Shown here piece by piece: positions 12,784 through 23,613 of a stretch of DNA of 64,000 nt. Source of the DNA: Luteibaculum oceani. Its GTDB lineage: Bacteria; Bacteroidota; Bacteroidia; Flavobacteriales_D; Luteibaculaceae. Made by a program: the position numbers and the translations under genes. The DNA lies in assembly GCF_007995015.1 (NCBI RefSeq), contig NZ_VORB01000004.1:186001-250000 (forward strand), written 5' to 3'. Under the pieces are notes generated by a model. That model saw only the letters and a program-made list of their open reading frames with translations, ran no database searches and was not told the origin of the DNA. The number at the start of each line of letters is the position of its first letter. Within the stretch, counting starts at the first letter, position 1.

Positions 12784-13407
12784 CTACTTGCTCCTGGCCT
12801 GAAGTATTTTTACAACATCTGTTAACTGATACCCTTTGGCATGAATTAATACCAAATAGTGGTACATCAAATCGGCAGCTTCATTGAGGAATAAATCATC
12901 TTTGTTATCCATAGCCTCGATCACCAACTCCACCGCTTCCTCGCCAACCTTTTGAGCAATCTTATTAATTCCCTTGGCATGTAAACTTGAAGTATATGAA
13001 GCTTTTTCTGGGGAATTTTTCTTTTCCAAAAGCGTCGCATTCAACTCTTCTAAAAAACCAACGGAATGGATCTGATCTTTCTTAAAGCAAGTTTTTTCAC
13101 CCGTATGGCAGGTAGGGCCAGAAGGCCTTGCTTTAACTAATAGGGTATCCTTGTCGCAGTCAAGGTAAATATTCTCAACTATTAGAAAATTACCACTGCT
13201 TTCTCCTTTGGTCCAGAGTCTATTTTTGGATCTGGAAAAAAATGTAGCCTTTCCTGATTCAAGAGTCTGGGATAAAGCCTCCTGATTCATAAAACCCAAC
13301 ATTAGAACCTGGCCGGTTGCAGAATCCTGGATTATTGCAGGAACAAGACCATCGCTATATTTTGAAAACTCTACTTGATCTTCCAAGTCTTTACTTATTT
13401 CATTCAT
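12784..13407 (-). CDS. hisIE: Phosphoribosyl-AMP cyclohydrolase / phosphoribosyl-ATP pyrophosphatase
   Basis: This 207-residue bifunctional enzyme carries steps 2 and 3 of histidine synthesis. The N-terminal HisI half has the zinc-site text YLDCDKDTLLVKA and PSGPTCHTGEKTCF. The C-terminal HisE half has GINKIAQKVGEEAVELVIEA, LFLNEAADLMYHYLVLI and a basic tail. It abuts hisF exactly (no gap) and is the last his gene. No terminator hairpin is visible before the next gene. Confidence 0.95.
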   Translation of the reverse strand: MNEISKDLEDQVEFSKYSDGLVPAIIQDSATGQVLMLGFMNQEALSQTLESGKATFFSRSKNRLWTKGESSGNFLIVENIYLDCDKDTLLVKARPSGPTCHTGEKTCFKKDQIHSVGFLEELNATLLEKKNSPEKASYTSSLHAKGINKIAQKVGEEAVELVIEAMDNKDDLFLNEAADLMYHYLVLIHAKGYQLTDVVKILQARSK

Positions 13408-14163
13408 TTACTGTCGTATTTCAATTCCTTGATCAGCGAGATAAGCCTTTAATTGAGGGATTTCAATTTCACCAAAGTGAAAAATGCTAGCTGCTAAACC
13501 AGCATCAATGCCTTCTGCTTTAAATAATTCTGAAAAATGCTTCATTTCACCAGCACCTCCCGATGCAATTATGGGCACCTCTACCGATTGTGCAATTTTG
13601 CGGGTGATGTCGATGGCAAAACCATTTTTTGTTCCATCATGGTCCATGGAAGTAAGTAGAATTTCACCACAGCCCAAATCTACCAGCCTCTTTGCCCAGG
13701 CCTCGGCATTTATTCCTGTTGCTTTTCTTCCTCCGTGTGAGAAGACCTCCAAACCCAATTCAGTTTGTTTTACATCTATAGCACAAACAACGCATTGTGA
13801 GCCAAAGGCATGTGCTAACTCCTTTACTAAATCTGGATTTCTGATTGCGGCGGAATTGACCGCTATTTTATCCGCTCCTGCTCTCAATAGAATTTCGGCA
13901 TCCTCCACACTAGATATCCCTCCACCCACAGCAAAGGGAATATCGATTTTCCGCGCTATATCCTCTACTAGTTTGGAAAAGGTCTTACGCCCTTCAACCG
14001 TGGCAGTGATGTCTAAAAAAACCAATTCATCCGCTCCCTTATAGGCATAAGCAGCAGCTAGTTCCACCGGATCCCCAGCATCTCGGAGCGACACAAAATT
14101 CACCCCTTTAACCGTTCTTCCATCCTTTATATCCAAACAAGGAATAATTCTTTTTGTAGGCAT
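13408..14163 (-). CDS. hisF: Imidazole glycerol phosphate synthase subunit HisF
   Basis: This 251-residue TIM barrel begins with [19 protein letters not shown] (catalytic Asp in CLDI). It has the second phosphate-binding half [12 protein letters not shown]-like text ([16 protein letters not shown]), the catalytic Asp in CAIDVK and GRKATGI. It converts PRFAR plus ammonia from HisH into IGP and AICAR. It is placed between hisA and hisIE with no intergenic spacing. Confidence 0.97.
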
Positions 14164-14880
14164 TTACACTAGGGATTTTAGTTCTAATTCCGAGATTCTT
14201 CCTTCGTAAATTGCTTTACCCACTATTGCTCCCGACAAATTTGCCTTCTTTAATTTTTGTAGGTCTGAGGCATTACTTACCCCGCCACTGGCTATTAAAT
14301 GGAGCTTGGGAAACCTTTCCAATAAAGATTGATATAACTCGAAAGCCGGCCCTGCTAACATTCCATCCTTACTGATATCGGTAACAAATGTTTGCACTAT
14401 GCCTTTATCCAACCAATATTTTAGGAATGAAAAAATATTCAGGTCCGAGGATTCCTCCCAACCACTTACCGCTACTTTTTCGTTTTTTACATCAGCCGCC
14501 AAAATAATTTTATCCGCACCAAATTCCGAAATCCACTCCTCTAGTAATGAGGGGTTCTTTACAGCTACCGATCCAATGGCCATATATTTTGCACCTGCAT
14601 CAAATACGGCATTACACCATGGAGTCCCCGAAATTCCACCACTGAAATCTACTTCCAACTCGGTTTTTGAACATATGCCTTCCAAAACCTTAAGATTTTG
14701 AACTTGCCCTGCTTTGGCTCCGTCTAAATCTACCAGATGTAACCGTTTTATTCCAATGCCCTCAAAGTATTTAGCCTGTTCAAGAGGATTTTCATTGTAC
14801 ACCACTTTTTGCTGGTAATCGCCTTGAGTTAGGCGAACACATTTCCCATCTATTAAGTCTATGGCTGGTATTATTTCCAT
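14164..14880 (-). CDS. hisA: ProFAR isomerase HisA
   Basis: This 238-residue TIM barrel begins with EIIPAIDLIDGKCVRLTQGDY, where the first catalytic Asp lies in AIDL. The second catalytic Asp is in FVTDISKDGMLAGP and a glycine-rich ASGGVSNASDL follows. It performs the Amadori isomerisation of ProFAR to PRFAR. It overlaps hisH by 10 nt and abuts hisF. Confidence 0.96.
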   Translation of the reverse strand: MEIIPAIDLIDGKCVRLTQGDYQQKVVYNENPLEQAKYFEGIGIKRLHLVDLDGAKAGQVQNLKVLEGICSKTELEVDFSGGISGTPWCNAVFDAGAKYMAIGSVAVKNPSLLEEWISEFGADKIILAADVKNEKVAVSGWEESSDLNIFSFLKYWLDKGIVQTFVTDISKDGMLAGPAFELYQSLLERFPKLHLIASGGVSNASDLQKLKKANLSGAIVGKAIYEGRISELELKSLV

Positions 14881-15470
14881 GGTAGATTTATAAAGTTTTC
14901 TATGATTCTAGAACCTGCTTTTCCGCTTTTCTCGGGATGAAATTGTACTGCGTAAAAATTGTTTTTCTCAACAGCCGTTACAAATTCTGTTGTCCCATGT
15001 TTTGATTTTGCTATGGCATTTTCACTGGATGGTATAAAATAACTGTGCACGTGATAATAGAACTCCTGTGGATTTAATCCAGCAAATAAAGGGTTATCGG
15101 AAAGCTGTGTTTCCGTCCATCCCATATGCGGGATTTTAAGCCCAGGCTCCGATGGAAAGCGAATTACCTCGCCATCAAAAATCCCCATCCCATCAACATT
15201 TCCCTCCTCAGACTTTTTAAACATCAATTGCATGCCCAAACAAATCCCAAGTGTGGGTTGTTTTAGGGTTCGAATAATCAAATCCAAACCCTTTGATTTA
15301 AGGTATTCCATTGCTGGCTTTGCATGGCCAACTCCAGGGAAAATTACGCGATCCGCAGATGCGATTAATTCTGGTTTATCCGTTAAAATAGGTTGTACAC
15401 CAATTCTTTCTAGGGCATTTATAACCGATTTGGTATTGCCAGCGTTATATTTTATTACCACTACATTCAT
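14871..15470 (-). CDS. hisH: Imidazole glycerol phosphate synthase glutaminase HisH
   Basis: This 199-residue class I glutamine amidotransferase has the nucleophile elbow LGICLGMQLMF with Cys77. The oxyanion strand is PGVGHA and the catalytic His/Glu pair is in VQFHPEKSGKAG. It supplies ammonia to HisF. Its start shares one base with the hisB stop and its end overlaps hisA by 10 nt. Confidence 0.96.
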   Translation of the reverse strand: MNVVVIKYNAGNTKSVINALERIGVQPILTDKPELIASADRVIFPGVGHAKPAMEYLKSKGLDLIIRTLKQPTLGICLGMQLMFKKSEEGNVDGMGIFDGEVIRFPSEPGLKIPHMGWTETQLSDNPLFAGLNPQEFYYHVHSYFIPSSENAIAKSKHGTTEFVTAVEKNNFYAVQFHPEKSGKAGSRIIENFINLPWK

Positions 15471-16618
15471 TACAGCACCCCTTTTGTACTTGGCAGTACA
15501 TTTGGATTTCCCGATTTTGTTTTAGCCATTTTCACCGCTTTAGCAAAGGCCTTAAAAATGCCTTCGATTTTGTGATGTTCGTTTTCTCCTTCAGCCGTAA
15601 TATGCAGGTTGCACAGTGCATTATCGGCGAAGGATTTAAAAAAGTGACTAAACATCTCTGTTGGCATATCTCCAACTTTTTCTCTTTTAAAACTAGCGTC
15701 CCATTTAAAATAAGGTCGACCACCAAAATCTATCAAAACCTCGGCTTTACAGTCATCCATAGGCAAGGCGAAACCATAGCGTTCAATTCCCTTTTTATCG
15801 CCCAGAGCATTTTTAATGGCCGTACCGAGGGCCAATCCGCAATCTTCAATAGTATGATGCTCATCGATATGTAAATCGCCCTTACAGGTAAGGTAAATAT
15901 CCACCTGACCGTGTTTTGCAATTTGTTCTAACATGTGGTCAAAAAAGCCCAAGCCAGTTGAAATTTTAGCCACCCCAGTTCCATCCAAGTTTACCGAACC
16001 ATAAATCTTGGTTTCAGAGGTTTCTCGGTAGATTTCTTCAACACGCTTAGTTGGTTTAGCAAGCAGATTATATATCTCTTCCCAATTGGAAACGAATTGC
16101 ATCTCCGGGTTTTCATCCATCCATTTTTTGGATTGTTCATCAATATCAAAACCCGTTCCTGAATTGAGGAAAAAACCTTTGCATCCTAAATTTTTGGCCA
16201 ATTGCATGTCGGTAACCCGGTCTCCAATAACGTAGGAGTTGGCCAAATCGTAGTTTGGATTATTTATGTAATCCACCAACATATCAGTACCCGGCTTTCG
16301 GGTAGGTGCTGGATTATCCTCGAAACTCACATCAATATGAATCCCAGTAAACTGCACACCCACCGAAGCAAAAGTTTCTATAATGTGCTTATTTATACTC
16401 ATAAAGGGCTCTTTCGGGAATTGATCGGTACCCAACCCATCTTGATTTGAAACTAGAACAAATTCGTAATTAAGCTCCCTTGCAATACGGCCCAGGTTAA
16501 AAAGAGCTCCATCCATAAATTTCACCTTATCCCAGGAGTCCACCTGCCAGGTAACTGGAACCTCTTGGATTAAAGTTCCGTCTTGGTCTAGAAATAAAAT
16601 GGGTTTAGCCTTTTTCAT
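15470..16618 (-). CDS. hisB: Histidinol-phosphatase / imidazoleglycerol-phosphate dehydratase
   Basis: This 382-residue bifunctional protein has the HAD phosphatase motif FLDQDGTL (Asp11, Asp13) in its N-terminal ~170 residues. The IGP dehydratase occupies ~195-382, with the metal-binding sequences HIDEHHTIEDCG and NEHHKIEGIFKA and the FDHML motif. It catalyses steps 7 and 9 of the pathway. The fused form is typical of enterobacteria and many Bacteroidota. Its start overlaps hisC by 14 nt. Confidence 0.97.
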   Translation of the reverse strand: MKKAKPILFLDQDGTLIQEVPVTWQVDSWDKVKFMDGALFNLGRIARELNYEFVLVSNQDGLGTDQFPKEPFMSINKHIIETFASVGVQFTGIHIDVSFEDNPAPTRKPGTDMLVDYINNPNYDLANSYVIGDRVTDMQLAKNLGCKGFFLNSGTGFDIDEQSKKWMDENPEMQFVSNWEEIYNLLAKPTKRVEEIYRETSETKIYGSVNLDGTGVAKISTGLGFFDHMLEQIAKHGQVDIYLTCKGDLHIDEHHTIEDCGLALGTAIKNALGDKKGIERYGFALPMDDCKAEVLIDFGGRPYFKWDASFKREKVGDMPTEMFSHFFKSFADNALCNLHITAEGENEHHKIEGIFKAFAKAVKMAKTKSGNPNVLPSTKGVL

Positions 16619-17651
16619 TGTAAAATGTATTTATTGCTTTCAATAATTGAATATTTTCCTCTTGAGTTCCTACGGAAATTCTAAGGGTATTTTTTACTTG
16701 TGCCCCTCTGTCTCTAATTACAATGCCCAGCTGGGTTAAATTGCGGTACAATTCCTTAGCTCGACTAGTTTCCACCAAAATAAAATTGGCATTAGAGGGG
16801 AAAACACTTTCAAAATATCCTGACTCATTTAGAGCCTTGTAAAGCTTATTTCGCTCATTTATAAGATTTTCGATATGCCCCTTCCAACGGCCGGAACTAA
16901 TTTGCCTATGGGCTTCCAACTGGCTTAATTGGTTAATATTATACGGCGGTTTTATCGTGTTTAAAAAGTCAATAATTTCTGGACTGGCAATAGCAACTCC
17001 TACTCGCAACCCTGCCAAACCAAAAGCCTTGCTTAAGGTTCTTAACACCACAAGGTTTTGATATTTCTGCAACAGATTTATGGCACTTTGCTCCGAAAAT
17101 TCCGCATAAGCCTCATCAACCACCACAATGCATTGTTTCAATCGCAATATTTCCTCTATGTCGTTCAGGCGCATATCATTTCCGGTAGGGTTATTTGGAG
17201 AGCAGAAGAAAACCAATTTCGGTTTCTCAGCTTCAATTATGCGTTTTAACTCCTTTAAATTAGCCTGAAAGGATGGATTGAGAGGGCACGAAAGCACCGC
17301 TACATTTTGAATGGCCGCCGTCTGCTCATACATACTATAGGTAGGTGGTTGCACAACTACCTGGTCTTGCCCCGGCACACAGAAAAGCCGAAGGACCATA
17401 TCTATGGCTTCGTCTGATCCATTTCCGAGAAAAATAGATTCGCTATCCACACCGTAAATAGTGCCTAACTCTTTTTTAAGTTTGGTCTGTAATGGGTCAG
17501 GATACCTATTAATTTGGTTATCAAATTCCTTATCAAATGGATTTTCATTGGCGTCCAACCAAACCGATGCAACACCTTTAAATTCACTTCTAGCGTTACT
17601 ATAAGGTTTTAGACCTAATAAGTGCGGTGCTATAAAACTCTTTAGATTCAT
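16605..17651 (-). CDS. hisC: Histidinol-phosphate aminotransferase
   Basis: This 348-residue fold-type I PLP aminotransferase has WLDANENPFD near 31-40, FCSPNNPTGN near 149-158 and Asp179 in VVVDEAYAEF. The PLP lysine is Lys208 in RTLSKAFGLAGLRVG. It transfers the amino group from glutamate to imidazole acetol phosphate. It overlaps hisD by 4 nt (ATGA) and hisB by 14 nt. Confidence 0.95.
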   Translation of the reverse strand: MNLKSFIAPHLLGLKPYSNARSEFKGVASVWLDANENPFDKEFDNQINRYPDPLQTKLKKELGTIYGVDSESIFLGNGSDEAIDMVLRLFCVPGQDQVVVQPPTYSMYEQTAAIQNVAVLSCPLNPSFQANLKELKRIIEAEKPKLVFFCSPNNPTGNDMRLNDIEEILRLKQCIVVVDEAYAEFSEQSAINLLQKYQNLVVLRTLSKAFGLAGLRVGVAIASPEIIDFLNTIKPPYNINQLSQLEAHRQISSGRWKGHIENLINERNKLYKALNESGYFESVFPSNANFILVETSRAKELYRNLTQLGIVIRDRGAQVKNTLRISVGTQEENIQLLKAINTFYNEKG

Positions 17652-18925
17652 TGCAGTCTTATTTTAACGGCGTTAGCATGCGCTTGAAGTCCCTCATTTT
17701 CTGCCATGCAAATAACAGTGCTCGATAGGTTTCCCAATCCTTCTTTACTGAGTTTTTGAAAGGTGATTTTGCGAAAATAGGAATCGAGATTCACGCCAGA
17801 ATATGCTCTTGAAAAGCCTGATGTTGGCAGGGTGTGATTCGTTCCAGAGGCATAATCGCCTACGGACTCGGGACTATACTCCCCAATAAACACAGATCCT
17901 GCATTCCTTACTTTTTCCGATAATTCCATGGCATCCATTGTGCTTATTATCAAGTGCTCTGGAGCATAGGTGTTAACAAAATCAACTGACTTCTTACTGT
18001 CTTTAAAAATTACAGCGAAAGAATTTTTTAGCGCACCACTGGCGATTCCCTCTCTGGGTAGCGTTCTAAGTTGTATTTCCAACTCTGCTTTCACCTCAGC
18101 TACTTTCTGTTCTGAGTTAGTTACTAACACTACCTGAGAATCCATACCGTGCTCTGCTTGAGATAGTAGATCCGAGGCAATAAAAGCGGCGTTAGAATTT
18201 TCATCAGCCCAAACCAACAATTCGGATGGTCCCGCTGGCATATCTATAGCAACTCCTACTTGCTGCGCTTTCATTTTTGCCGCAGTAACGTATTGATTTC
18301 CCGGACCAAATATTTTGTCACACTTAGGAATACTTTCCGTTCCATAAGTTGCCGCTGCTACCGCCTGAGCTCCTCCAACTGTATAAATATTACTAACCCC
18401 AGCTAATTTGGCTGCATAGGCTATTGCAGGGTGTATAGACTTTTCTTTATTGGGAGGAGTAAATAAATTGATTTCCCCTACTCCCGCAATTTTTGCGGGA
18501 ATGGCCAACATAAGAACCGTTGAAAACAAGGGTGCCGTTCCCCCAGGAATATAAATTGCCACACGCTCTATAGGCACGGGCTTTTGCCAGCATTCAACAC
18601 CAGGCTCAACGGTAATTACGGCCTCTGGTGTTTTCTGCGCCCTGTGGAACTTTTCTATGTTCTTGGCTGCATGCTTAATGGCATTTTGAAGGTCTGCTCC
18701 ACACTCCTTTGCAAGCTTATCCCACGTGATAGCATCCATTAAAAACTTGCTAGGAACCGAGGCTTCGAACATCCTTGCGTAATCCAAAAGTGCCTGGTCG
18801 CCTTTTGATTTTACCGACTGAAATATTTGATTAATCAATTCCTCCAAATTTGCAGCGTCTACTGAGGGACGTTGACATAAACTCGACCACGAATCAATCT
18901 GAGGCTCTTTATAAATTGCTAACAT
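17648..18925 (-). CDS. hisD: Histidinol dehydrogenase
   Basis: This 425-residue zinc-dependent NAD enzyme performs the last two oxidations to histidine. Recognisable segments are PGGTAPLFSTVLMLAIPAKI near 130-150, GPGNQYVTAAK, DMPAGPSELLVWAD, the zinc-ligand region LLSQAEHGMDSQ and the late APEHLI and GEYSPESVGDYASGTNHTLP. It shares one base with the hisG stop. Confidence 0.97.
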   Translation of the reverse strand: MLAIYKEPQIDSWSSLCQRPSVDAANLEELINQIFQSVKSKGDQALLDYARMFEASVPSKFLMDAITWDKLAKECGADLQNAIKHAAKNIEKFHRAQKTPEAVITVEPGVECWQKPVPIERVAIYIPGGTAPLFSTVLMLAIPAKIAGVGEINLFTPPNKEKSIHPAIAYAAKLAGVSNIYTVGGAQAVAAATYGTESIPKCDKIFGPGNQYVTAAKMKAQQVGVAIDMPAGPSELLVWADENSNAAFIASDLLSQAEHGMDSQVVLVTNSEQKVAEVKAELEIQLRTLPREGIASGALKNSFAVIFKDSKKSVDFVNTYAPEHLIISTMDAMELSEKVRNAGSVFIGEYSPESVGDYASGTNHTLPTSGFSRAYSGVNLDSYFRKITFQKLSKEGLGNLSSTVICMAENEGLQAHANAVKIRLQ

Positions 18926-19782
18926 TACTTGAACATTTTTTCAATTGGAACTACGAGTACACCTTCTGCTCCCACTTTGTGCAGCTCATCAATGACCTCC
19001 CAAACCTGTTTCGCATTTACCACACTGTGTACTGAACTCCATCCCTTTTTTAGAAGGGGCATGACGGTTGGACTGGATATTCCAGGTAAAACAGCTGCAA
19101 TTTCATCAAGTTTCTCATTGGGCGCATTTAGCAGGATGTACCTATTATTTTTTCCTTCTTTAACTGCCTTGATTCGGAACAAGAGTTGCTCCAGAAACTC
19201 ATTGTGTTCGTTGGACAGGCTTTTATTCGCAACTAAAACTGCCTCGGATTTAAGGATGGTTTCTACTTCTTTTAACCCATTCATTGCAAGCGTAGATCCC
19301 GTACTAACGATGTCCATTATACCGTCGGCTAAACCAATACCAGGAGCAATTTCAACGGATCCAGAAATGTCGTGGATGGACGCCTCAATACCTTGTTGGC
19401 TTAAGTAGGTTTTTAATATTTCACCATAGCTGGTGGCGATGCGTTTACCTGAGAAATAGGAAATTCCCGTGTAATTTTCACCTCTTGGTATGGCAAGAGA
19501 CATACGACACTTTCCAAAGCCCAATTTTGCAACGGTATTGATATCTCGTTTTTCTTCGAGCAACACATTCTCACCCACAATTCCCAATTGGGCTACACCA
19601 TTTTCCACATACTTTGGAATATCATCATCTCGAAGAAATAATATTTCCACATTGGAATTAGGAACATTGGCTTTTAACTTATTGTGTCCAAGATTTAACT
19701 CAAATCCGCAGTCTTTTAAAACCTCAATGGACTTATCACTTAATCGTCCACCCTTTTGAATTGCAATTTTTAAAGTTTCCAT
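18925..19782 (-). CDS. hisG: ATP phosphoribosyltransferase (long form)
   Basis: From the ATG at 19782 the protein is METLKIAIQKGGRLSDKS..., 285 residues, the normal length of the long HisG. It has a periplasmic-binding-like catalytic domain (GLADGIMDIVSTGSTL is the PRPP loop). A C-terminal ACT-like regulatory domain from ~215 implies feedback control by histidine. It condenses ATP and PRPP, the committed step. A longer reading frame starting at 19851 would translate through the attenuator terminator and should not be used as the start. It is the first structural gene after the his leader. Confidence 0.96.
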   Translation of the reverse strand: METLKIAIQKGGRLSDKSIEVLKDCGFELNLGHNKLKANVPNSNVEILFLRDDDIPKYVENGVAQLGIVGENVLLEEKRDINTVAKLGFGKCRMSLAIPRGENYTGISYFSGKRIATSYGEILKTYLSQQGIEASIHDISGSVEIAPGIGLADGIMDIVSTGSTLAMNGLKEVETILKSEAVLVANKSLSNEHNEFLEQLLFRIKAVKEGKNNRYILLNAPNEKLDEIAAVLPGISSPTVMPLLKKGWSSVHSVVNAKQVWEVIDELHKVGAEGVLVVPIEKMFK

Positions 19783-19784
19783 AA

Positions 19785-19812
19785 ACAAAAAAGGCTCGCC
19801 GAAGCGAGCCTT
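19785..19812 (-). terminator. his attenuator: leader terminator before hisG
   Basis: On the minus strand the 9-bp stem AAGGCTCGC/GCGAGCCTT has the stable tetraloop TTCG and is followed by a T-rich tract ending in GTTTATG, whose ATG is hisG. An intrinsic terminator directly ahead of a biosynthetic gene and 40 nt after the His-rich leader stop is the expected place for an attenuator. Confidence 0.9.
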
Positions 19813-19898
19813 ATATATTGGTTTAAAATTTAATTTATCACCATAACACAACTCACCCCTTTCCGGTTCCGGATAAATGATGATGAAAATGTTGTGTT
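19804..19898 (-). promoter_or_regulatory. his attenuator alternative pairings
   Basis: On the minus-strand RNA, segment A (AACACAAC, 19891-19898, in the Thr-Gln codons of the leader) pairs perfectly over 8 bp with segment B (GUUGUGUU, 19845-19852) just after the leader stop. B overlaps GUGAGUU (19850-19856), which can pair over 7 bp (three G:U) with GGCUCGC, the 5' arm of the terminator (19804-19810). A:B and B:terminator-arm are mutually exclusive. A ribosome stalled on the His codons would mask A and free B as antiterminator. A ribosome at the UGA would mask B and let the terminator form. The pairings are read by eye and the mechanism is inferred. Confidence 0.7.
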
Positions 19899-19909
19899 GA
19901 GAAAATCAT
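19853..19909 (-). CDS. hisL: his operon leader peptide
   Basis: This short minus-strand frame encodes MIFSTQHFHHHLSGTGKG and stops with TGA. Codons 7 and 9-11 are CAT, so four of five consecutive codons (7-11) are His. It lies 70 nt before hisG and is followed by alternative hairpins and an intrinsic terminator. This is the classical architecture of a histidine-sensing leader. By analogy with the enterobacterial His leader it would act in cis through ribosome position, and the peptide itself need not have a function. The ATG follows a perfect -7 promoter box by only 4 nt, so there is no room for a Shine-Dalgarno site. Confidence 0.85.
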   Translation of the reverse strand: MIFSTQHFHHHLSGTGKG

Positions 19910-19913
19910 GGCG

Positions 19914-19921
19914 CAAATGTA
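19914..19921 (-). promoter_or_regulatory. his operon promoter -7 box
   Basis: The minus strand reads TACATTTG, an exact TAnnTTTG match. A TTTG lies 18 nt upstream, slightly closer than the usual 19-21. The leader ATG begins 4 nt after the box, so transcription should start at or within a few bases of the leader start codon. Confidence 0.65.
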
Positions 19922-19984
19922 ATCAAATCTCTAAAACTCCAAATAAAATTTTATTTTTTTTGAATTCGCATTCAAAATCCAATC

Positions 19985-20509: not shown

Positions 20510-22006
20510 TCAAAGATATAAATCAAACGCATCGACAGTAAAGGATTCACTTTTTTGCATGTAATTATGTAAAATATCATCTTTTTTCATAAACAATACC
20601 TGCTCTCTAAACCTTGTATATAAAGATTTAAGAACATCACTAGTGTCTTCGGGTTGATGAAAATCAAGAGCTTGAAAAGCTGTTAACAACTCAATTGATA
20701 GAATTCTATGCAAATTTTTAACGACGGAAAACCACTTTGTAGCAGCATTTGCCCCCATACTTACATGATCTTCTTGCCCATTAGAAGAATCTATAGTATC
20801 AACCGAGCTTGGTGTACATAATTGTTTATTTCTGCTAACTATTGAAGCAGCAGCATACTGAGGTATCATAAAACCTGAGTTAATTCCTGGCTCATCTACT
20901 AAAAATGGCGGCAAATTTCTTTCTCCAGAAATAAGTTTATATACTCTTCTTTCTGAGATAGAGCCCAATTCTGCGCATGCGATTGCAGCATAATCAAAGG
21001 CGATTGCTAACGGTTGACCATGAAAATTCCCTCCACTTACTATTTTATCCTCTTTGAATAATAATGTAGGGTTATCGGTAACCGCATTTATTTCATTTTC
21101 CAGAATAGTTTTTACATGGTTCAATGCATATAAACTTGCTCCATGCACCTGTGGGACACATCTAAAACTATATGGATCTTGAACATAAGGCTTCTTTTTA
21201 ATAATGGATTTACTCCCTTTAAGCAGGCTTTGTATTACTTCTGCAATAGCAACTTGCCCCGGATGCTTACGTAATTCATGAAGCTCCGTAATAAAGGGGT
21301 TTAAATTGCCCGAAAAGGCTTCTAAAGAAATTGCCGCGTTATGATTTGCTAGGTTAAGTAGCTGAAAGGCATTGTACAGGCAAATGCAACCAAATGCACT
21401 CATAAATTGTGTTCCATTTAAAATGGATATTCCTTCCTTTGCTTTTAACTCAATCGGAGACAATCCGTGCTTTTGATAGAGCTTTTTAGTAGGCACCTTT
21501 TGCGTACCGTCCCAAGCTTCTCCCTCACCAAAAAGCACCAATCCAAGATGTGCAAGGGGTGCTAAATCTCCACTTGCTCCCAAAGATCCATATTCATATA
21601 TAACCGGAACAATTCCTGCATTGTATACAGCAATCATTTGATCTATTAATTCTGTACTTACACCAGAATTACCTTTACTAAGACCGATTATTTTTAGTAG
21701 AAAAATAAGCTTGGAGACTTCCATAGAAATAGGTTCTCCTACCCCACAAGCATGAGACCGAACTAGGTTAAACTGGAGCTCAGACAACATCGACTTGTTA
21801 ATCTCTGTATTACAAAGGCTTCCAAATCCAGTGTTAATTCCATAAATAGGATCTTCTGCTTCCTCTAACTTCTTCTCCAGAAAATCTCGCCCCTTGGCTA
21901 TATCATTTCTACTCTCGGGTGAAAGCTCCACCATATCGGCCTTTAAGCCTTGAATTATATCATCTATGGTGAGAAAATCTTGGGATATTATGAATTTACT
22001 TGCCAC
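20510..22006 (-). CDS. hutH: Histidine ammonia-lyase (orphan)
   Basis: The protein has 498 residues. The MIO cofactor tripeptide Ala144-Ser145-Gly146 lies in YGSLGASGDLAPLAHL. The substrate-selectivity pair is Ser84-His85 (LVRSHACGVGEP), as in histidine rather than tyrosine or phenylalanine lyases. Later family motifs GGNFHGQPLA and SSNGQEDHVSMG are present. It deaminates L-histidine to trans-urocanate. No hutU, hutI or hutG is nearby. Instead it overlaps the hisS stop by 11 nt and precedes the winged-helix-like gene, so it sits among histidine biosynthesis and charging genes. The role could be histidine disposal or urocanate supply. Confidence 0.9.
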   Translation of the reverse strand: MASKFIISQDFLTIDDIIQGLKADMVELSPESRNDIAKGRDFLEKKLEEAEDPIYGINTGFGSLCNTEINKSMLSELQFNLVRSHACGVGEPISMEVSKLIFLLKIIGLSKGNSGVSTELIDQMIAVYNAGIVPVIYEYGSLGASGDLAPLAHLGLVLFGEGEAWDGTQKVPTKKLYQKHGLSPIELKAKEGISILNGTQFMSAFGCICLYNAFQLLNLANHNAAISLEAFSGNLNPFITELHELRKHPGQVAIAEVIQSLLKGSKSIIKKKPYVQDPYSFRCVPQVHGASLYALNHVKTILENEINAVTDNPTLLFKEDKIVSGGNFHGQPLAIAFDYAAIACAELGSISERRVYKLISGERNLPPFLVDEPGINSGFMIPQYAAASIVSRNKQLCTPSSVDTIDSSNGQEDHVSMGANAATKWFSVVKNLHRILSIELLTAFQALDFHQPEDTSDVLKSLYTRFREQVLFMKKDDILHNYMQKSESFTVDAFDLYL

Positions 22007-23372
22007 AGTATTTTGCTATAGTTAATATTAAATCGTCTTTGGAATGCGAAGTTTGCTCTCCGGTTTCCATATTTTTTAATTGAATTAGTCCTTCGGACCA
22101 TTCTTTATCACCTGCTAACACTACAAAGGGTATATCGTTATCGTTAGCGTATTTCATTTGCTTTTTAAGCTTAGCATTTTCAGGATACATAACAGCAGAA
22201 ACTCCGCGATCCCTTAGAGTCGTGCATAGAGAAAAATTATTTGGTGCCATCTCATCCTCGAAATAGCAAATCAACACATCATTTTGCCTTGCCGTATCTT
22301 TTGGGAATAACTCCAGAGCTTCTAATACATCATAAATGCGATCTGCACCAAAGGAAATACCGACGCCGGACAACCCCTTTTGGCCAAACACTCCCGTAAG
22401 ATCATCGTATCGACCTCCACCACAGATACTTCCAATTTGTACTTCATGGGCTTTTACCTCGAAAATGGCACCCGTGTAGTAATCTAATCCACGAGCAAGG
22501 GTAAAATCCAGGGCTAAATCCGCCTTTTTTATTCCTGCTAATTTTGCCTGGGTATAAACAAATTCCAATTCCTTTAAACCCTCTAATCCAATGGCCGAAT
22601 CTTTAAGAAGATCTCTCATCTTTTCAAGGCAAGATTCCGGATCTGCTGGTAAATCAAAAATTGGATAGGCTTTTTCAAGAGATGCAGCGTCCAGACCTTT
22701 AGCCAGCATTTCTTCAATTACTTTATCTCTACCTATTTTATCCAACTTATCCAGGGCCACGGTAAAGTCTACAATTTTATCGGGCTGACCGATTAACTCT
22801 GCTAGGCCACTAAGTACTTTTCTATTATTTATTTTAATAGTAAAGCCAGGAAGTTTCAGGTCGGTTAAAACTCGATCGAAAAGAAGCATTAGCTCTACTT
22901 CGTACCAAAGGGACTCTGATCCTACCACATCGGCATCGCACTGAAAAAATTCACGGTAACGCCCTTTTTGTGGACGATCTGCACGCCAAACAGGCTGAAT
23001 TTGATATCGTTTAAAAGGAAAAGTTAATTCGTTTTGATGCTGCACTACGAAACGAGCAAAGGGAACCGTTAAATCGTAACGCAAAGCTTTTTCTGATATA
23101 CTTGAGATTAAGGACTTTGAATCTTCATTTGCAAGGGCGCTTTTGTCGGCTTTTTTTAAATAATCTCCACTATTGAGAATTTTAAATATCAATCGATCTC
23201 CTTCCTCTCCATATTTACCCGTTAGTGTACTTAAATTCTCCATCGCTGGAGTTTCAATGGGTTGGTAGCCAAAAGACTTGAAATGCTTTTTGATGGTTGA
23301 AAAAATATATTCTCTTTTTCTAGCATCAGCAGGAATAAAATCTCTTGTCCCCTTTGGAATGGATGGTTTCAT
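21996..23372 (-). CDS. hisS: Histidyl-tRNA synthetase
   Basis: This 458-residue class II synthetase has the motif 2 region PVWRADRPQKGRYREFFQCD, the histidine-specific motifs LARGLDYYTGAIFEV (HisA-type) and GSICGGGRYDDL, and motif 3 GVGISFGADRI. A C-terminal anticodon-binding domain starts at ~360. It charges tRNA-His in the cytosol. The stop overlaps the hutH start by 11 nt. A 38-aa membrane protein gene ends 8 nt upstream of its start. Confidence 0.96.
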   Translation of the reverse strand: MKPSIPKGTRDFIPADARKREYIFSTIKKHFKSFGYQPIETPAMENLSTLTGKYGEEGDRLIFKILNSGDYLKKADKSALANEDSKSLISSISEKALRYDLTVPFARFVVQHQNELTFPFKRYQIQPVWRADRPQKGRYREFFQCDADVVGSESLWYEVELMLLFDRVLTDLKLPGFTIKINNRKVLSGLAELIGQPDKIVDFTVALDKLDKIGRDKVIEEMLAKGLDAASLEKAYPIFDLPADPESCLEKMRDLLKDSAIGLEGLKELEFVYTQAKLAGIKKADLALDFTLARGLDYYTGAIFEVKAHEVQIGSICGGGRYDDLTGVFGQKGLSGVGISFGADRIYDVLEALELFPKDTARQNDVLICYFEDEMAPNNFSLCTTLRDRGVSAVMYPENAKLKKQMKYANDNDIPFVVLAGDKEWSEGLIQLKNMETGEQTSHSKDDLILTIAKYCGK

Positions 23373-23380
23373 ATAATATT

Positions 23381-23497
23381 TTAATCTCGGTCTAAATCAA
23401 ATGGCTTGGTACCCGGTTTGCGCTGGTTCCCACCTTTTTTCCTTAGAAAAATATAAAGGATGTACAGCATGATAGAACCAAACAAATAGTACCACAT
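23381..23497 (-). CDS. Small 38-aa membrane protein upstream of hisS
   Basis: The frame from the ATG at 23497 to the TAA at 23381 encodes one hydrophobic helix (WYYLFGSIMLYILYIFL) followed by a basic tail (RKKGGNQRKPGTKPFDLDRD). The positive-inside pattern suggests a single-span protein with a cytoplasmic C-terminus. A -7 box TACCTTTG lies 7 nt upstream of its start and hisS begins 8 nt after its stop. It is therefore probably the first gene of the hisS-hutH transcript. I do not recognise the family. Its size means it is easily missed by gene callers. Confidence 0.6.
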   Translation of the reverse strand: MWYYLFGSIMLYILYIFLRKKGGNQRKPGTKPFDLDRD

Positions 23498-23597: not shown

Positions 23598-23613
23598 TAA
23601 TTGAATTGGAAAA

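Follow-up and report, generated by a model that had tools for sequence, protein, structure and literature searches.

The histidine operon of Luteibaculum oceani is very probably governed by a ribosome-mediated transcription attenuator of the classical type, which was identified within a 64,000-nucleotide stretch of its DNA (the window). On the minus strand, a short leader open reading frame (ORF) rich in His codons, conserved in relatives, precedes the complete operon hisGDCBHAFIE, and an intrinsic terminator separates this leader ORF from the first gene, hisG. In a thermodynamic model, an antiterminator and the terminator are mutually exclusive, with the outcome set by the position of the ribosome. 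Histidine attenuation as such is already known; the new parts are its phylum-wide scale in the Bacteroidota and a layout in which the start codon of the leader would come first in the transcript.

The leader codons on the minus strand read ATG ATT TTC TCA ACA CAA CAT TTT CAT CAT CAT TTA TCC GGA ACC GGA AAG GGG TGA. An initial annotation, made from the DNA letters, had pointed to a His-rich minus-strand frame here, and the ORF at 19909–19853 indeed carries CAT at four of five consecutive codons. A spacer of 40 nt lies between the leader UGA and the terminator hairpin, AAGGCTCGC-TTCG-GCGAGCCTT at 19812–19791, which is followed by TTTTGTTT and the hisG ATG. The stem is G+C-rich, comprises 9 bp and has TTTTTTGTTT immediately after it; the T-tract extends to 19783 and the ATG begins at 19782, as expected from the earlier claim of a terminator whose poly-U runs up to hisG. 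The two alternative pairings proposed in the initial annotation were also recovered. The 8-bp pairing of AACACAAC (19898–19891) with GUUGUGUU (19852–19845) is perfect (p = 0.01 against shuffles), and the competing 7-bp pairing joins GUGAGUU (19856–19850) to GGCUCGC (19810–19804), three of its pairs being G-U. As folded, the antiterminator comprises 9 bp (19859–19851 with 19809–19801) plus UGUGU/AUAUA (19850–19846 with 19816–19812). The fold of the whole-leader RNA with 20 nt of upstream sequence has a z-score of −4.2, which none of 200 shuffles equalled. Among 116 loci, the helix between the segment preceding the His codons and that following the stop was significant at the 0.05 level in only 34; it is real in the window and in some groups, and is not a universal part of the attenuator.

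Table 1. Features of the his attenuator and operon in the window (coordinates count from the first base of the window).
Feature	Position	Strand	Description and basis
−33 promoter element TTTG	19940..19943	−	TTTG-N18-TACATTTG; the primary sigma factor of Bacteroidota has the consensus TTTG/TANNTTTG (PMC6847099)
−7 promoter element TACATTTG	19914..19921	−	Exact match to TANNTTTG
Predicted transcription start	19909	−	A of the leader AUG; from the −7-box spacing of 4–5 nt (PMC6847099), with G at −5
Leader ORF	19853..19909	−	18 codons, predicted peptide MIFSTQHFHHHLSGTGKG, then UGA; ATG 19909–19907, UGA 19855–19853
Putative regulatory His codons 7, 9, 10 and 11	19877..19891	−	All CAT; sequence and simulated stall
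Strand 1, AACACAAC	19891..19898	−	Predicted to pair with strand 2 in ribosome-free RNA; folding, shuffle p = 0.01
Strand 2, GGGGUGAGUUGUGUU	19845..19859	−	Spans the leader stop codon; predicted partner is strand 1 or strand 3
Strand 3, AAGGCUCGCUUC	19801..19812	−	Terminator 5′ arm and loop; taken by strand 2 in the predicted antiterminator
Intrinsic terminator and U-tract	19783..19812	−	Stem 19812–19804/19799–19791, loop UUCG; −14.9 kcal/mol; terminator scan
hisG	18925..19782	−	First gene of the operon; NCBIfam TIGR00070 and TIGR03455 above cut-off
hisD, hisC, hisB (bifunctional), hisH, hisA, hisF, hisIE	12784..18925	−	NCBIfam for all but hisIE
hisIE	13407–12784	−	Position and sequence only

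The neighbourhood of the operon contains further histidine-related genes. Directly upstream, on the same strand, lie hisS and hutH (histidine ammonia-lyase, degradation) at 20513–23372, and a 163-aa ORF is situated between them and the his operon. As hisS lies upstream of the his operon, a His-rich ORF was also looked for before hisS, and none was found. A strong hairpin at 23598–23573, considered as part of a hisS leader, belongs to the preceding ABC-F gene as its terminator. A 38-aa ORF (MWYYLFGSIMLYILYIFLRKKGG..., 23381–23497, minus strand) starts 7 nt past TACCTTTG and stops 8 nt short of hisS; it could encode a small membrane protein expressed from another very short 5′ untranslated region (UTR).

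The influence of the ribosome was simulated on RNA in which the terminator 5′ arm and loop had been made and the 3′ arm had not, with ribosome-covered RNA held unpaired; the energy model is thermodynamic, without kinetics, pausing or pseudoknots. In the window, capture of the 5′ arm is worth −2.7 kcal/mol for a ribosome on the start codon, is strongest with the A site at codons 7–13 (−10.6 to −13.2 kcal/mol), and drops to −0.4 kcal/mol with the ribosome at the stop codon. A ribosome at the stop masks a longer stretch, so that any sequence shows some difference between stall and stop, and the fair test is therefore a comparison with dinucleotide shuffles of the RNA between the ribosome and the terminator. 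When the last His codon is the stall site, the value of −10.6 kcal/mol compares with −3.0 ± 2.0 kcal/mol in shuffles (p about 0.01). In this model the switch works best at the His codons, its optimum coinciding with codons 7–13. The simulation was applied to every leader with a terminator, giving 123 distinct leaders with a mean capture of −10.4 kcal/mol when stalled, −1.7 kcal/mol at the stop and −4.0 kcal/mol when shuffled. A stall at the last His codon beats the stop by more than 3 kcal/mol in all 123, and capture reaches p ≤ 0.05 against shuffles in 107; the 16 leaders without significance at 0.05 include three from the window's own order (L002, L005 and L007).

We infer the course of transcription start, leader translation, stalling and termination in the cell as follows. 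RNA polymerase would begin on the leader AUG or directly beside it, with a ribosome loading onto the 5′ end as it emerges. When charged His-tRNA is scarce, the ribosome would stall at codons 7–11 and mask strand 1, leaving strand 2 to capture the terminator 5′ arm, and transcription would continue into hisGDCBHAFIE. When His-tRNA is ample, the ribosome would reach the UGA and mask strand 2, and the terminator would form 8 nt before hisG. The initial annotation had suggested attenuation of this enterobacterial type, and computational support for it comes from the conservation of the His codons, the covariation of the pairing and the ribosome-mask simulation. The stall and read-through logic of the proposed strand switch thus stands; the guarding of the terminator by the 8-bp stem stands only partly, because about 73% of the ribosome-free early RNA of the window is in the antiterminator form. 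Such RNA would leak if initiation were slow, and the modelled no-ribosome state of the window is not tightly off. In full-length RNA, the terminator is favoured at equilibrium whatever the ribosome state, so that, as with every attenuator, the model relies on kinetics.

Conservation was assessed at loci collected via hisG from named and whole genomes, with further upstream regions added by coordinates. A leader was defined by an ATG start, a length of 6–45 codons, three or more His within six codons and a position no more than 320 nt upstream of hisG. A His-rich ATG ORF of this kind precedes hisG at 95 of the 101 loci of the first set, and the same rule was satisfied by 7 of 1,054 other same-strand segments (approximately 0.7%), 6 of 1,054 opposite-strand segments and none of 101 antisense leaders. 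The six exceptions include one ORF running into Ns, two with a GTG start and one with a weaker His stretch. In a second set, drawn evenly over the phylum, 74 of 89 further hisG loci have a His-rich ORF, GTG starts counted, and those without one are mostly from genomes with very divergent hisG; these counts are not of independent loci, since some species occur twice, and chance may account for a few of the calls in G+C-rich genomes. A terminator lies between the His leader and hisG in most relatives. The alignment upstream of hisG, which the initial annotation had proposed as a check, reveals His codons conserved phylum-wide and compensatory changes in Flavobacteriaceae.

This conservation is the decisive support for the attenuator being more than chance. 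The same-strand 163-aa ORF ends 75 nt before the leader ATG, as it might if the hairpin were merely the ordinary terminator of that upstream gene, next to a chance His-rich ORF and without regulation. However, the His-rich ORF recurs at the equivalent site amid differing neighbour sequence across the phylum, set against a control rate of approximately 0.7%, and the leader is separated from the upstream gene by a promoter; the chance reading is refuted by the conservation and retains a negligible probability. Control of hisG by a T-box or other riboswitch, with the ORF being incidental, is suggested by his genes under T-box control in other phyla (PMC9413887), and is extremely improbable here: a T-box would not fit into so short a transcript, the conserved part of which is the His codons, and riboswitch searches returned nothing for the window when gathering thresholds were applied, nor for the 241-base leader at E-values of up to 10, the specifier and antiterminator structure of the T-box (RF00230) being likewise not found in these searches. 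The best Rfam matches, istR and STnc40, fall below the gathering score and are driven by the terminator.

In the alignment, the terminator and the competing upstream pairing of the attenuator keep their form while their sequence differs, with three unrelated-looking solutions. Strands 2 and 3 are GGGGUGAG/CUCGCUUC in the window, CA(G/A)GCG/CGU(C/U)UG in the Flavobacteriaceae-type group and GGUAGGC/GCUUACC in Chitinophagaceae and relatives. The variable pair of strands 2 and 3 in the Flavobacteriaceae group is G-C in 15 cases, A-U in 11, G-U in 4 and A-C in none (Fisher p = 5e-5, uncorrected for kinship). The relatives compared are at order level or more distant from the window, so that support for the pairings specific to the window comes from thermodynamics and from how these more distant relatives behave.

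Two groups of His leaders are followed by no terminator. In Algoriphagus, Belliella, Cecembia and relatives (L029, L031, L033, L034, L037, L039, L041, L042, L044, L061, L066, L102, L103 and L105), leaders of about 27 aa end in HHxHHSS with GAGGAA or GGAGGA right after, and no intrinsic terminator was found before hisG; judging from this arrangement, the mechanism must differ, through either translation or Rho. In a second group, mostly of genome family f34 (L174–L178, L182, L184, L193 and L194), leaders with many His codons precede a U/C-rich spacer of 3–7% G, no hairpin was found after the leader, and the low-G spacer looks like a Rho loading stretch. Several leaders of this second type have a GTG start exactly 4 nt past TAnnTTTG.

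Given that some His leaders have no terminator, at least part of the phylum must rely on control through translation or Rho. For the window, translation control would mean that the hairpin blocks initiation at hisG and that the stalled ribosome opens it, and this agrees with a hairpin ending 8 nt from the hisG AUG, with the lack of a Shine-Dalgarno sequence, and with Cyclobacteriaceae-like and f34 leaders that are entirely without a terminator. We nevertheless consider it very unlikely, as the 9-bp G+C-rich stem with TTTTTTGTTT is a standard intrinsic terminator, and the U-tract is retained in relatives whose hairpin sits 20–60 nt from hisG, too far to mask the start codon.

Two further variants were observed among the relatives. 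In Flavobacteriaceae- and Bacteroidales-type loci (L003, L008, L011–L018, L020, L022–L024, L026, L027, L064, L075, L090, L092, L111, L113 and others), a strand 15–25 nt upstream of hisG (for example GTTTACTCAGACA) complements the terminator 5′ arm and loop (CGTCTGAGTAAA). This third helix, which is absent from the window, beats shuffles at 0.05 in 24 of 34 loci, and its loop and partner change together (AAGGGAAA/TTTCCTTT, GAGTACA/TGTACTC). Its strand lies downstream of the terminator, and in read-through transcripts the helix, mutually exclusive with the others, sits immediately ahead of hisG. Locus L030 is near-identical to L090 from just past the leader stop to hisG and is missing the His leader, either through leader loss or through an assembly joint.

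The promoter of the window's attenuator, a feature absent from the initial annotation along with its spacing to the ATG, has the minus-strand layout TTTG-N18-TACATTTG-CGCC-ATG, with 4 nt between the box and the leader AUG. Promoters of Flavobacterium johnsoniae are characterized by T−12 A−11 T−8 T−7 T−6 G−5 and a distance of 4–5 nt from box to start (PMC6847099), with which the box-to-start position in F. psychrophilum agrees (PMC9723704). The 4-nt gap, taken with this published spacing, places the predicted start at the A of the AUG, and the leader ORF is probably leaderless. Searching the genome for TTTG-N17-19-TANNTTTG-N4-ATG returned four matches, with a His-rich leader only at hisG; the ORFs at the other three are not leader-like. 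A sigma-70 promoter scan, the wrong promoter type for this phylum, gave 27 matches versus 29.6 expected and was disregarded.

The short distance between promoter and leader recurs in the phylum. TAnnTTTG occurs within 45 nt upstream of 133 of 171 leaders, against a shuffled-sequence rate of 4%. The predicted 5′ UTR is shorter than 10 nt in 79 of these 133 Bacteroidota His leaders, 0 nt in ten and 1 nt in none; the ten zero-length cases, four of them with a GTG start, are spread over several families. The window's own promoter-to-start distances come from seven genes only, too few for a control, and published figures were therefore used: in F. johnsoniae, 87% of 5′ leaders exceed 10 nt and about 13% are 10 nt or less (PMC6847099), and in Bacteroides thetaiotaomicron 3.7% are shorter than 10 nt. 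Relative to 13%, the excess of short predicted 5′ UTRs has a binomial p of about 1e-36, a value inflated by kinship and based on predicted starts. On balance, the case is evenly poised for a lineage-wide, start-codon-first design unlike the enterobacterial one, with side branches lacking a terminator, in which the leader ORF of Bacteroidota his attenuators begins on the first transcribed base or no more than about 8 nt from it and is leaderless or nearly so, the ribosome loading on the first nucleotides without a Shine-Dalgarno sequence and keeping pace with the polymerase. This layout raises a testable question, namely how a ribosome loads in time on a leader without a 5′ UTR.

Histidine attenuation is textbook knowledge in enterobacteria, and a 2004 comparative study reportedly mentions attenuators in some Bacteroidetes/Chlorobi. 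The present analysis extends this worked-out form of regulation phylum-wide, to bacteria without Shine-Dalgarno sequences in which attenuation had been mentioned but little analysed, and the His-leader pattern provides an annotation rule for short genes missed by genome pipelines. The window attenuator resembles hisL of Escherichia coli and Salmonella (RF00514) in its short ORF with a run of His codons, its terminator before hisG and its exclusive antiterminator, and it would share the response to charged His-tRNA. However, hisL has seven His codons in a row rather than four, and a Shine-Dalgarno leader in place of a start codon at the predicted transcription start behind a Bacteroidota promoter; the RF00514 model does not match the window when gathering thresholds are applied, nor the leader at E-values of up to 10. 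The E. coli his leader is 18 aa long (PMC3896937).

In F. psychrophilum and other Flavobacteriaceae, a study of 2021 described a conserved structured element in the 5′ region of hisG that has no Rfam match, and reported strong indications that leader peptides attenuate amino-acid operons in this family (PMC9723704). The element concerns the same gene and is of the same class as the window attenuator. The main text of that study treats hisG in one family, without leader peptide, pairing or ribosome analysis, whereas another family and the phylum are covered here. The his leader attenuators proposed in Firmicutes (PMC9413887, PMC2965389) similarly combine a His-codon leader with a terminator and antiterminator before his genes and likewise do not match RF00514, but they belong to another phylum, are unrelated in sequence and are probably of independent origin. 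Bacteroid-trp RNA (RF01692), a cis-regulatory RNA motif in Bacteroidetes (PMC2864571), is tied to trp genes judging by its name, and has no match in the window. The trpL attenuator of Sinorhizobium meliloti would share its leaderless leader ORF with the window attenuator, the trpL transcript starting at the AUG of that ORF (PMC7298713); trpL differs in responding to tryptophan, in belonging to the Alphaproteobacteria and in having a mapped start, where that of the window is predicted.
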